Shown: one piece after another, positions 2,972-29,333 of the stretch
Numbering within the stretch: position 1 is the stretch's first letter
How the letters are laid out: each line of letters starts with the position of its first letter
Source: Lacinutrix sp. WUR7
Lineage (GTDB): Bacteria; Bacteroidota; Bacteroidia; Flavobacteriales; Flavobacteriaceae
Assembly (NCBI RefSeq): GCF_016864015.1
Contig: NZ_CP045067.1
Span: 2,490,001-2,554,000 of the forward strand
Reading direction: 5' to 3'
Length of the DNA stretch: 64,000 nt
Made by a program: the position numbers and the translations under genes
Notes under the pieces: model-generated
Seen by the model: the letters and a program-made list of their open reading frames with translations, nothing else
What the model was told of the DNA's origin: nothing
The model's database searches: none

Positions 2972-3532
2972 TTATTTTCGTATAACTTTAACAATACCAT
3001 TGCTGCCTAATTTAATAATAGACGAAGGTTTTGTTGTTTTTTTTTCGTGGTGCAAATTTACAACATAGTCTACACCTTTTATAATCTCTTGAGGTATTTC
3101 TTTAAAGGATTTTGGAGTAGGAGCACCACTAATATTTGCTGAGGTAGACACAATTGCACCATTAAGTTTTCTGCAAATTTGGTAGCAAAATTCATCATCC
3201 GGAATTCTAATCGCAATGGTTTTGTCTTTTGCTATTAAATTAGGTGCTAGGTTTTGTGCATCATCATAAATGATGGTAATCGGGTTTTCGGCAACATCAA
3301 AAATACTTTGTGCAGCGTCGGGTATTTTTTTTATATACTTAGTTAGCATTCTTTCATCTGCAACTAAGCAAATCATAGCTTTGGTTTCTATACGTTTTTT
3401 AAGCTTATAAATTTTTGTAACTGCTTCGGCATTAGTAGCATCACAGCCAATTCCCCAAACTGTATCTGTAGGATATAAGATTATTCCGCCATTTTTTAGA
3501 ATTTCAATGGTGTTTTTAATTTCTTTGTGCAT
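2972..3532 (-). CDS. tsaC: L-threonylcarbamoyladenylate synthase (TsaC/Sua5/YrdC family)
   Basis: Makes threonylcarbamoyl-AMP from threonine, bicarbonate and ATP, the first step of the t6A37 modification of ANN-decoding tRNAs. The 186-residue protein is the short TsaC form without the extra Sua5 domain. Visible signatures are YPTDTVWGIGCD (20-31), the basic LKKR stretch shortly after it, and STSANISG near residue 130. Ends in a basic VIRK tail. It lies 73 bases upstream of cca on the same strand, so two tRNA-maturation enzymes are neighbours, which fits a shared unit. Confidence 0.93.
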   Translation of the reverse strand: MHKEIKNTIEILKNGGIILYPTDTVWGIGCDATNAEAVTKIYKLKKRIETKAMICLVADERMLTKYIKKIPDAAQSIFDVAENPITIIYDDAQNLAPNLIAKDKTIAIRIPDDEFCYQICRKLNGAIVSTSANISGAPTPKSFKEIPQEIIKGVDYVVNLHHEKKTTKPSSIIKLGSNGIVKVIRK

Positions 3533-26868: not shown

Positions 26869-28101
26869 TTATTTTCTCAAATTCTGAATTCTCTTTAATA
26901 AAGAAGGATGGGAATAATGCATAAATTCATATGCTTTATGTGGCGTTAAATTACTTAAGCTATTTTTAGATAGTTTTTTAAGGGAAGTAATTAATGGTTC
27001 GGCTTTGTAGGTGTTTTTTGCATAATCATCTGCTTGGTATTCAAACTTTCGGGAAAACCAATTCATTAATAAACCTGTGATTTCGGAAAGCGGACTATAT
27101 AAAATTCCGAAAGCAATTAATCCAATATGAAAACTAGGAGTAGCTACGCCTAAAGCTTGTGATAGTATTGGTTTTGAAATAAATAAGGAAAGTATAAAAA
27201 GGGTAAAACCGGTTAGTAAAACGGAAGCAACCAAATTAAATATTATATGTTTCTTTTTGTAATGACCAACCTCATGCGCAAGCACAGCAACTATTTCTTC
27301 TTCGTCTAAATCGTTAATAAGTGTGTCATATAAAGTGACGCGTTTTTCGCTACCAAATCCGGAGAAATATGCATTTGCTTTGGTGCTTCGTTTGGAGCCG
27401 TCAATAACAAAAATTTTGTCTAGTGTAAATCCTACCGTTTTTGCATAGGCTGAGATTTTATCGCGAAGACTTCCATCTTCTAATGGCGTTTGTTTGTTGA
27501 AAAGTGGTACAATGAGTTTGGCGTAGAACATATTCATAAAAACTGTGAAAGCAGTAACTAAAGCCCAAGCATACAGCCAAAAGTGGTTGCCTGTGGTTTC
27601 ATAAAACCAAATTATTGCAGATAGAATAAGGCTGCCAACAATCGCCATCATGAACCATCCTTTTATTTTGTCGAACCAAAAGGTCTTTTTTGTGGTTTTG
27701 TTGAATCCGAATTTCTCCTCAATAACAAAAGTCTGGTAATAACTAAAAGGGGTGGTGAGTATATCGCTTCCTATCATAATTATTCCGAAGAAAATTAATG
27801 CAACTACAATTGGGTTTTCAGAATAACTTCTAGCAATATTATCGATAGCTTCAAAACCATCAAAAATTAAAAAACCTAGTGTTAATATTATAGAGAACGT
27901 AGAAGTTAAAATTCCGAATGTATAATTCGTTTTCTTGTAATCCTGCGATTTATTGTATTCAGAGGCATCATAAACATCTTGTAGCTCTTCTGGAACTTTA
28001 TCCTTATAATGTTTAGCGTTTAATGCGTCTAGCGTTTTATCGATAATAAAATCGATAATTAAAATAGCAAGGATAATATAGAAAAGTGTAGTAGGTGTCA
28101 T
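26869..28101 (-). CDS. M48 family metallopeptidase (Ste24/CAAX protease-like)
   Basis: A 410-residue polytopic membrane zinc protease. The catalytic motif is HEVGH (276-280), preceded by LDEEEIVAVLA; the third zinc ligand is probably the Glu in SRKFEYQADDYA, near residue 355. N-terminal hydrophobic segments and a helix pair after the HEVGH motif match the Ste24 barrel. Bacteria lack CAAX prenylation, so a role in membrane protein quality control is more likely. It is downstream of the GIY-YIG gene but separated from it by the inverted-repeat element. Confidence 0.93.
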   Translation of the reverse strand: MTPTTLFYIILAILIIDFIIDKTLDALNAKHYKDKVPEELQDVYDASEYNKSQDYKKTNYTFGILTSTFSIILTLGFLIFDGFEAIDNIARSYSENPIVVALIFFGIIMIGSDILTTPFSYYQTFVIEEKFGFNKTTKKTFWFDKIKGWFMMAIVGSLILSAIIWFYETTGNHFWLYAWALVTAFTVFMNMFYAKLIVPLFNKQTPLEDGSLRDKISAYAKTVGFTLDKIFVIDGSKRSTKANAYFSGFGSEKRVTLYDTLINDLDEEEIVAVLAHEVGHYKKKHIIFNLVASVLLTGFTLFILSLFISKPILSQALGVATPSFHIGLIAFGILYSPLSEITGLLMNWFSRKFEYQADDYAKNTYKAEPLITSLKKLSKNSLSNLTPHKAYEFMHYSHPSLLKRIQNLRK

Positions 28102-28136
28102 GATTAATTTATGAAAGTGTTAAAATAGAAACTATT

Positions 28137-28163
28137 TGTCATACTGAGCGCAGTCGAAGTACT
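28137..28163. repeat. REP-like hairpin, left copy, at the 3' end of the GIY-YIG gene
   Basis: Unit TGTCATACTGAGCGCAGTCG followed by AAGTAC. The 4-bp stem TACT/AGTA closes around GAGCGCAGTCGA. The sister copy at 28490-28514 has GCCT/AGGC at exactly these positions, so both sides of the stem changed together. It abuts the TAA stop of the GIY-YIG gene and is inverted relative to the other copy. Confidence 0.8.
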
Positions 28164-28474
28164 TATTTGTCTTTATATTTATAATGCGTAGCATTTCTGC
28201 ATTCCGATAAAATTTGAAGTCTGTTAAAATCGCTAGCTATTAAAGCTTCTTTTTTAGCACGAGTCCATTTTTTAATTTTCTTTTCGAAATAAATAGGGTG
28301 TAAAACATCACCAAACGCTTCATTGAATTTTATTTCTAAAGGCCTTCTTTTAAACGTATAGCAATCGCGGTATTTTCCATAAGAATGTTCTTTTAAGCGT
28401 TTATCTAAATTACTAGTAATTCCGGTATAATAGGAATTGTCAGCACATTTTAGAATGTAAACATAGTAGAACAT
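28163..28474 (-). CDS. GIY-YIG nuclease family protein (single domain)
   Basis: A 103-residue one-domain GIY-YIG nuclease of the UPF0213/YhbQ type. The two signature strands are YVY (4-6) and YTG (16-18). The catalytic arginine R26 lies in DKRLKEH and the metal-binding E64 in YFEKKIKKW. All catalytic residues are present, so it should be active. The gene is bracketed by inverted copies of a 26-base hairpin repeat, one ending 15 bases before its ATG and the other touching its stop codon. This looks like a mobile or self-associated unit rather than a housekeeping repair gene. The DNA target is unknown. Confidence 0.9.
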   Translation of the reverse strand: MFYYVYILKCADNSYYTGITSNLDKRLKEHSYGKYRDCYTFKRRPLEIKFNEAFGDVLHPIYFEKKIKKWTRAKKEALIASDFNRLQILSECRNATHYKYKDK

Positions 28475-28489
28475 AATGATGTATTAATG

Positions 28490-28514
28490 GCCTTCGACTG
28501 CGCTCAGGCTGACA
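28490..28514. repeat. REP-like hairpin, right copy, before the GIY-YIG gene
   Basis: On the minus strand it reads TGTCAGCCTGAGCGCAGTCG then AAGGC. The stem GCCT/AGGC covaries with TACT/AGTA of the left copy, while GAGCGCAGTCGA is identical. It ends 15 bases before the GIY-YIG ATG. Confidence 0.8.
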
Positions 28515-28532
28515 TTTAGGAGCATTTACATT

Positions 28533-29333
28533 TTATTTAAAATTCCGCTGTCTTTTCGCTTCAAAAATCAATATTCCAGCAGCAACCGAAACATTCATAG
28601 AATCTATTTCTCCTTGCATAGGGATTTTAATATTTTGTTTGGAGGCTTTTCGCCAAGCATCGCTTAATCCATCTGCTTCTGTACCAACCACAATTGCTGA
28701 TGCATTGGTGTAATTTTGTTCGTGATAATTTACTGCCTCTTGCAAAATAGCACTATAAATGGCTATGTTGTTTTGGTTTAAAAAAGTAATGATTTCATCG
28801 GTAGATCCTGTCGCAATTTGGTTTGTAAATAAACAACCAACACTAGAGCGAATGATATTTGGATTGTATAAATCGGTTTTCGGATTTGCAATAATTACAG
28901 CATCTACATTTGCAGCATCTGCAGTACGTAAAATAGCGCCAATATTCCCTGGTTTTTCTGGCGCTTCCGCAATTAGAAGTAAAGGGTTTGGGGTGTTAAA
29001 TTGTAGACTTTCAATACTGTGTAGTTTGTTTTTGGCAATAGCAATAATACCTTCCGTAGTACTTCTATGCGCTAATTTTTGGTATACCTCTTTAGATACT
29101 TCTATAACTTCTGCAGCACCAATTTTTAACGTATCTAAGGCTACTTCAGAAAACAACTCGGGATAGAACAAAATAGTTGTTATTTCATACTTTCCTTTAA
29201 TCGCTAATGAAATTTCCCGTTCGCCTTCAATTAAAAACAACCTAGATTGTTTTCTGTTTTTAGACTTATCTTTTAAAAGGACAAGTTCTTTTATGTAAGA
29301 ATTTTGTGTACTTGTTATTTGTTTGAAATCCAT
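28533..29333 (-). CDS. TrmH/SpoU family RNA 2'-O-methyltransferase
   Basis: A 266-residue SPOUT methyltransferase acting on rRNA or tRNA. The N-terminal substrate-binding part (about 1-95) contains SRLFLIEGEREISLA. The knotted catalytic domain shows the three SPOUT motifs: PGNIGAILRTADAANVDAVI, VVGTEADGLSDAW and IPMQGEIDSMNVSVAAGI. The RNA target (23S rRNA Gm sites are common) cannot be told from sequence. It is divergent from the large T9SS gene; a -7 box lies 23 bases before its ATG. Confidence 0.93.
   Translation of the reverse strand: MDFKQITSTQNSYIKELVLLKDKSKNRKQSRLFLIEGEREISLAIKGKYEITTILFYPELFSEVALDTLKIGAAEVIEVSKEVYQKLAHRSTTEGIIAIAKNKLHSIESLQFNTPNPLLLIAEAPEKPGNIGAILRTADAANVDAVIIANPKTDLYNPNIIRSSVGCLFTNQIATGSTDEIITFLNQNNIAIYSAILQEAVNYHEQNYTNASAIVVGTEADGLSDAWRKASKQNIKIPMQGEIDSMNVSVAAGILIFEAKRQRNFK

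Follow-up and report, generated by a model that had tools for sequence, protein, structure and literature searches.

A stand-alone GIY-YIG nuclease gene bracketed by inverted YGTC-headed hairpin repeats in Lacinutrix: a candidate REP-nuclease partnership

When a small nuclease gene is found between two inverted hairpin repeats, do gene and repeats belong together, or have they merely come to lie side by side? The question is raised by a locus in Lacinutrix sp. WUR7 (Flavobacteriaceae, Bacteroidota), which is contained in a stretch of 64,000 nucleotides (NZ_CP045067.1, positions 2,490,001 to 2,554,000; in the following the window, with positions counted from its first base). There, a gene for a GIY-YIG nuclease is bracketed by two inverted, TGTC-ended repeats, which resemble repetitive extragenic palindromic (REP) sequences:

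28163..28474, minus strand: single-domain GIY-YIG nuclease gene, 103 amino acids (open reading frame; PF01541, 58.8 bits; AlphaFold2, mean predicted local distance difference test (pLDDT) 91.2; Foldseek)
28137..28162, plus strand: left REP-like hairpin, TGTCATACTGAGCGCAGTCGAAGTAC, TGTC head outward, outer stem TACT/AGTA
28489..28514, minus strand: right REP-like hairpin, TGTCAGCCTGAGCGCAGTCGAAGGCC (minus-strand reading), TGTC head outward, outer stem GCCT/AGGC
28137..28514, no strand assigned: whole 378-bp unit of TGTC hairpin, gene and inverted hairpin (comparison of orthologous junctions)

The unit is probably, though not surely, a REP-nuclease partnership, similar in kind to REP-associated tyrosine transposases (RAYTs) and their REPs, in which a stand-alone GIY-YIG nuclease is paired with a YGTC-headed hairpin family of its own. 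A first-pass annotation of the window had described two inverted 26-base repeats around one complete GIY-YIG gene. Both repeats were located and the reading frame is complete; the left copy abuts the stop codon, as described, while the right one lies 14 bases before the ATG, not 15. The four bases by which the copies differ do form two paired changes. Both copies begin with TGTC, which is one of the heads (CGTC, TGTC or CCTC) defining CGTC-tagged REPs. The 15-mer core, with up to two mismatches allowed, occurs twice in the window compared to 0.00 times in 100 shuffles, and an Rfam scan of positions 28050-28600 yielded nothing up to E 1.

Counting the hairpin core across the genome and relating it to GIY-YIG genes had been proposed as a check. 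In the 3,987,475-base genome of the strain (G000), the core GAGCGCAGTCGA is present in 55 copies and its reversed control in none. PF01541 is matched at 11 places, eight in small frames of 84-144 amino acids, two of them containing one stop, and three in long frames of 458-603 amino acids. Five of the 55 core copies are located within 500 bp of the eight stand-alone genes, with 0.13 expected (binomial P 2.7e-7), and both bracket-sized core pairs of this genome (+/-, 250-600 bp) contain a GIY-YIG gene. By eye, most of the eight small genes adjoin hairpin repeats, the families of which differ (TCGAGCGCAGTCGA, ATTTCCGCGAAGGCGGAAAT, TTCGAGTG...TATCGAGAA, GCGAGG..CGAAGCAATC and others). From repeat positions alone, a GIY-YIG gene was predicted at G132:C1:413713/414154 in another genome, and a later search placed one at 413836-414129. 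Among the places listed, three of four bracket-sized pairs noticed hold a GIY-YIG gene, two in G000 and one in G132.

For controlled comparisons, the 250-bp left flank of each gene was aligned with its reverse-complemented 250-bp right flank. This flank score is motif-free, and values of at least 16 were counted; controls were other genes from the same stretches, at a distance of 700 bp or more. Among the eight small genes of G000, an inverted pair was detected in four and a direct pair in two more. The first set, from this genome and its relatives, comprised 68 of at least 80 small-frame places (12, mostly weak matches or on short contigs, were omitted), 66 of which were scored, the flanks of two being too short. 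Inverted pairs were found at 23 of the 66 GIY-YIG genes and at 4 of 305 controls, direct pairs at 29/66 and 7/305, respectively. In the second set, picked by protein similarity only and consisting of the best 80 of 551 GTDB loci (mostly Flavobacteriaceae) and 30 loci from the best matches of a phylum search, the corresponding values were 55/110 versus 2/291 (Fisher 4.6e-34) and 58/110 versus 8/291. Four of these loci are unsound or not independent (L195 and L196 repeat first-set loci, L116 is almost a duplicate of L115, and L208 is misplaced at a contig end); leaving them out gives 53/106 inverted pairs. A strict scanner for YGTC stems had found hairpins on both sides in 5/68 versus 1/286 cases; internal mismatches hid most copies, and the flank score was substituted for it.

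Outward YGTC heads on both sides within 150 bp were present at 85 of 172 GIY-YIG genes and 44 of 578 controls. Any of seven repeat cores occurred within 250 bp of 122/175 GIY-YIG genes versus 71/541 other genes, and an identical core on both sides of 70/175 versus 8/541, where the cores, on which the repeat-type test below depends as well, were chosen by hand after viewing the flanks. Compared to other genes, GIY-YIG genes are bracketed by YGTC repeats far more often. Hairpins occurring regardless of GIY-YIG genes would have spoken against a connection; the association is strong in many genomes, with some exceptions.

Does each nuclease have its own repeat? A FastTree tree of 175 distinct GIY-YIG proteins was built from 106 columns and is weakly resolved. 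Placed on it, the seven repeat types plus the state "none" require 32 changes, whereas the shuffled mean is 103 and none of 200 shuffles was as low. In one clade, referred to as the flanked clade, repeats lie beside 129 of 148 genes; of the 27 genes across the midpoint root, 6 have them. When proteins were collapsed by flanking gene family, 73 clusters remained in the flanked clade, and in 64 of these at least half of the members are flanked. Four repeat types occupy 17, 17, 17, and 8 neighbourhoods without a common flanking gene family. Type and clade therefore co-occur at different places, and the repeat type is specific to the protein clade.

Outside the flanked clade, another arrangement was noticed. 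At L083, L087, L089, L101, L108, and L067, the gene or a gene pair is situated beside a complete tRNA gene, and 31-73 bases of that tRNA are repeated on the opposite side (six of eight loci tested; the copy at L012 is 22 bases long, and L098 is without one). The gene looks as if it had entered beside a tRNA serving as its target, part of which was duplicated. In genome G161, two tandem sets of three equal-scoring GIY-YIG places, about 320 bp apart, are present (G161:C1:1733881-1734727 and 1384667-1385513).

If the unit is an insertion, orthologous sites without it should exist, and the first-pass annotation had suggested looking for them in sister strains. The genes on either side served for this comparison:

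26869..28101, minus strand: left neighbour, which we take to be an M48-type peptidase gene; adjoins the right neighbour in 18/23 loci
28533..29333, minus strand: right neighbour, presumably a TrmH/SpoU-type RNA methyltransferase gene; matches in 23/31 genomes

Among the 18 loci with both neighbours, a GIY-YIG gene is present in three, G000, G002, and G003, the last one frameshifted, and absent from 15. Nine window-site loci were examined base by base. The sister loci of G001, G004, G006, and G011 lack the whole unit, having neither gene nor repeats, and G005 and G012 contain another TGTC-headed repeat, the gene being absent. The contrary case, relatives with the gene at this site and no repeats, was not encountered, as all three gene-bearing loci have them. 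Similar arrangements were found elsewhere. In Azospirillum lipoferum 4B, a unit separates sufB from sufC, while in A. ramasamyi, A. oryzae, and strain B510 91-130 bases without such a unit lie between the two genes. The gltA-lpxB site occupied in Sinorhizobium meliloti Ak57 has CGTC-type hairpins in Sinorhizobium sp. C101, with the gene absent. Gene and repeats are jointly missing from orthologous sites; terminal inverted repeats and an empty orthologous site, both seen here, are features of insertion sequences and miniature inverted-repeat transposable elements.

The hairpins themselves were analysed using 282 distinct copies with the core GAGCGNAGTCGA from the loci collected. The four outer stem pairs are standard pairs in 96, 97, 95, and 94% of the copies, compared to means of 72, 69, 40, and 43% in shuffles, which ignore the relatedness of copies. 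All four Watson-Crick pairs occur at the two outermost positions, and at the window site the G003 orthologue shows GTCT/AGAC in place of GCCT/AGGC in G000, a paired change. In the repeat type of the window, a conserved 12-base core is enclosed by four covarying outer pairs, and YGTC is located among the bases 5' of the core in 238 of the 282 copies. The outer stem is maintained through compensatory change. Strong evidence of this had already been seen in the paired changes of the two window copies; two copies alone are no proof, but the 282 are.

At GIY-YIG genes, the start of the shared inverted repeat is no more than one base away from YGTC in 38 of 77 copies on the left and 35 of 77 on the right, the density of YGTC there being 0.0069 per base. 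As the inverted similarity breaks off at YGTC, the repeats act like the termini of a unit. The 55 core copies of G000 include nine close inverted pairs, corresponding to the inverted doublets that define REPINs (REP doublets forming hairpins); six of the nine have their heads outward as in the gene unit, and dispersed close inverted doublets without a gene between them are present. Other arrangements of copies were seen as well. G000:C1:1693316-1693872 contains six core copies in direct orientation with a period of 109 bp, and in contig C1 of G032 (for example L311-L322) many regular inverted doublets are spaced 43-44 bp apart.

Homing endonucleases of the stand-alone GIY-YIG type are well known, and the unit could be explained by a homing-like gene. 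The hairpins would then be older, independent targets, beside or between which the gene invades via break repair, and the repeats would not be spread by it. The tRNA-adjoining genes outside the flanked clade, at six of eight loci, resemble a gene next to its target, and orphan repeat populations do occur. However, the empty window sites of G001, G004, G006, and G011 are devoid of repeats as well, the shared ends stop at YGTC, and the layout of the gene unit recurs in the six outward-headed doublets. A homing-like gene is, in our view, an unlikely explanation.

What the protein is bears on a second alternative. PF01541 is the sole Pfam family matched, over nearly the whole domain and well above the cut-off of 22.6 bits, placing the protein in the GIY-YIG superfamily, and no NCBIfam family was matched at E 0.001. 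The roles of tyrosine, arginine, and glutamate in catalysis by GIY-YIG nucleases are known. The catalytic residues, which had been called intact, indeed are, with Y6, Y16, G18, R26, H30, and E64 invariant in 20 aligned sequences, and 11 further proteins, including some from Alphaproteobacteria and Neisseria, retain the conserved Y, G, R, H, and E. The AlphaFold2 model is based on 29 sequences. Below E 0.001, Foldseek matched it to UPF0213 1zg2 only (E 1.9e-6), followed by UPF0213 1ywl (1.2e-3) and the branched-DNA nuclease Slx1 (1.7e-2). The predicted Slx1/UPF0213-like fold fits an action on hairpins and proves nothing about such action. The HUH motif and catalytic tyrosine of RAYTs (Y1_Tnp) were not found in this PF01541 protein. 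In a search of viral contigs with the window protein, three stretches matched a pattern and none was confirmed, giving no link to phages.

A domesticated nuclease could process the hairpins for its host, by removing cruciforms or controlling its own transcript, the repeats being kept for this service and not moved. Repeats at the stop codon and 14 bases before the ATG could act on mRNA, and the appearance of Slx1 among the weaker fold matches would suit this role. Against a host function stands the patchy presence of the gene, which is absent from 15 of 18 orthologous junctions and whose relatives (designated A2, matches at E <= 1e-15) were found in 114 of 296 genomes of a phylum sample; moreover, some gene copies carry stops or frameshifts. 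We consider a host function doubtful, and more so than homing.

In the same sample, A2 proteins were detected in 31 of 43 genomes with at least four copies of CTGAGCGNAGTCGAAG compared to 83 of 253 others (hand count; Fisher P 2e-6, a statistic that ignores kinship among genomes), and all 12 genomes with repeats but without A2 have PF01541 matches. Could another enzyme move the repeats, with the GIY-YIG gene as a passenger? RAYTs go with other REPs, according to the accessible part of PMC2817692, and Y1_Tnp proteins are encoded in eight of ten other repeat-carrying genomes. In the genome of the window strain, in turn, Y1_Tnp (PF01797) had no match, so that a RAYT-type transposase is absent, and neither G032 nor G305 has one; G000 and G032 nevertheless contain 55 and 162 copies. 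Agreement between protein clade and repeat type is not expected of a passenger, and no CGTC repeats were reported around transposase genes in the accessible text of Di Nocera et al. 2013 (PMC3733652). On this evidence, which covers transposases of the RAYT type, the passenger explanation is very improbable. Coincidence, which 55 copies might make conceivable by providing chance neighbours, is refuted by the five copies near eight genes where 0.13 were expected, the GIY-YIG genes in both bracket-sized pairs, and the control comparisons.

A number of observations weigh against a partnership. The main evidence against a one-to-one rule comes from G032, G305, and G307, in which PF01541 is matched in long frames only and a stand-alone gene is lacking. 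G032 harbors 162 copies of CTGAGCGNAGTCGAAG with GIY-YIG matches only in frames of 609 and 460 amino acids, and G305 and G307 have 12 and 14 copies, respectively; gene loss after repeat spread would explain such orphan repeats. The sole bracket-sized pair of G032 among the places listed (1542526/1542871) contains no GIY-YIG gene. Within the flanked clade, 19 of 148 genes are without a flank by the tests used, and only 72 have a clear inverted pair (score of at least 16). Inward, gene-facing YGTC heads are enriched too, less strongly than outward ones. Folded as DNA, the single window hairpins do not stand out from shuffled sequence (z -0.48 and +0.63). Comparing filled and empty sites by eye, no target-site duplication was found, the flanks being too diverged for placing the junctions. 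Linkage alone would cause gene and repeats to be inherited together; the unrelated sites argue against linkage as the whole story, if not conclusively.

For the partnership, the following working can be proposed. The nuclease would bind the hairpin of its own repeat family, probably when this is in single-stranded or branched form, and might nick at or near the YGTC head. Nicking would allow copying or transfer to other locations, in cis for the gene with its brackets and in trans for doublets that lack a gene, in the same way as envisaged for RAYT transposases and REPINs, with GIY-YIG replacing the HUH-tyrosine chemistry. That the nuclease may recognise, process or spread the hairpin, like a RAYT with another fold, had been suggested from the outset, and the association, the sister loci, and the clade-tracking repeat type lend this support at the level of sequence. 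Binding, cleavage, and mobilisation by the nuclease are what we infer from it.

The pairing is not confined to one phylum. A tblastn search with L092, a relative from another subclade, matched 34 records of a plasmid collection, 17 of which were taken; together with one more record and four alphaproteobacterial loci they form a mostly proteobacterial set of 22. Inverted pairs with a score of at least 16 were found in 17/22 versus 1/31 controls, the 22 including the near relatives Shinella L284/L294, Sphingobium L285/L295, and Sinorhizobium L278/L291; the unflanked loci Legionella L113 and Photobacterium L114 were outside this count, and their inclusion gives 17/24. The gene is bracketed by outward-headed CGTC hairpins in Novosphingobium aromaticivorans, Neorhizobium, Aeromonas, Sphingobium L285, and Shinella L292. 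In A. lipoferum 4B and Neisseria gonorrhoeae it lies between groups of at least two hairpins in both orientations, and in S. meliloti the right hairpin copy has a damaged head. The gonococcal hairpins presumably are the dRS3 repeats of Neisseria. Gene-repeat pairing recurs outside the phylum. Two loci showed further peculiarities. Upstream of the GIY-YIG gene of L279 (S. meliloti Ak57 pSymB, 3010-3294), an apparent second, truncated copy of the 3' end of the gene is situated among further CGTC hairpins (read by eye), as if REP recombination or a unit duplication had taken place. The GIY-YIG gene of L281 (Planktothrix agardhii plasmid p1) has a type IIL restriction-modification gene as one neighbour and DISARM drmA as the other, and the inverted repeats around it are of another kind.

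These results touch on a gap left by the survey that defined CGTC REPs in 2013 (Di Nocera et al., PMC3733652), which, in its accessible text, ended with the enzyme missing: these REPs "apparently lack a dedicated transposase". Of the candidates available for the enzyme that CGTC/TGTC REPs are said to lack, the GIY-YIG nuclease is the best. The wider idea, that single-domain GIY-YIG nucleases are dedicated mobilisers of the whole CGTC/TGTC REP superfamily in several phyla, forming minimal mobile elements with dispersed REPs as non-autonomous offspring, is finely balanced, and we lean only slightly towards it. If the pairing is causal, it offers a testable candidate cause for many short palindromic repeats of Bacteroidota and Alphaproteobacteria and for the CGTC repeats of Neisseria. 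It would be an independent example of hairpin repeats coupled to a nuclease, and comparison with RAYT-REP systems would show what such a partnership needs. Mobilisation, if demonstrated, would mean a new chemistry for REP-type elements.

How does the unit compare to known systems? In the part of the open-licence literature available to us, no link between GIY-YIG proteins and REP-type repeats was found, a report elsewhere being possible, and a text search there with the core letters gave only works unrelated by title. Small GIY-YIG proteins of the UPF0213 type are similar in size and comprise the closest solved structures by sequence and fold (1zg2, 1ywl); we know of no report tying them to repeats. 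A GIY-YIG nuclease in a mobile gene is familiar from the homing endonucleases I-TevI and I-BmoI and from Penelope-like elements. The window unit differs from these in being single-domain, without intron or reverse transcriptase, and bracketed by dispersed hairpins. With CGTC-tagged REPs it shares the YGTC head, the palindromic stem, and dimers. Their description, as far as accessible, gives a stem of 8-9 bp starting with A-T pairs, a loop of 4-5 bases, and a CCA-like tail, and names S. meliloti, A. lipoferum, N. aromaticivorans, and Neisseriae as carriers (PMC3733652). In these taxa such hairpins are found on both sides of GIY-YIG genes, and 8-9 bp stems occur around most proteobacterial GIY-YIG genes having CGTC hairpins, whereas the window repeat has its four covarying outer pairs and 12-base core instead; a further difference is the candidate dedicated enzyme, none being reported for CGTC-tagged REPs in that text. 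The likeness to RAYT-REP systems and REPINs, judged from the accessible parts of their descriptions, lies in dispersed inverted doublets and in complementary changes that preserve the palindromes (Nunvar 2010, PMC2817692; Bertels and Rainey 2011, PMC3116915). In contrast to these systems, the enzyme is of the GIY-YIG and not the HUH-tyrosine type, the heads are TGTC or CGTC and not GTAG or GTGG, and the genome is without Y1_Tnp. The unit is not a RAYT; within the kind of systems that combine REPs with a dedicated enzyme, it would be one with an unrelated enzyme.
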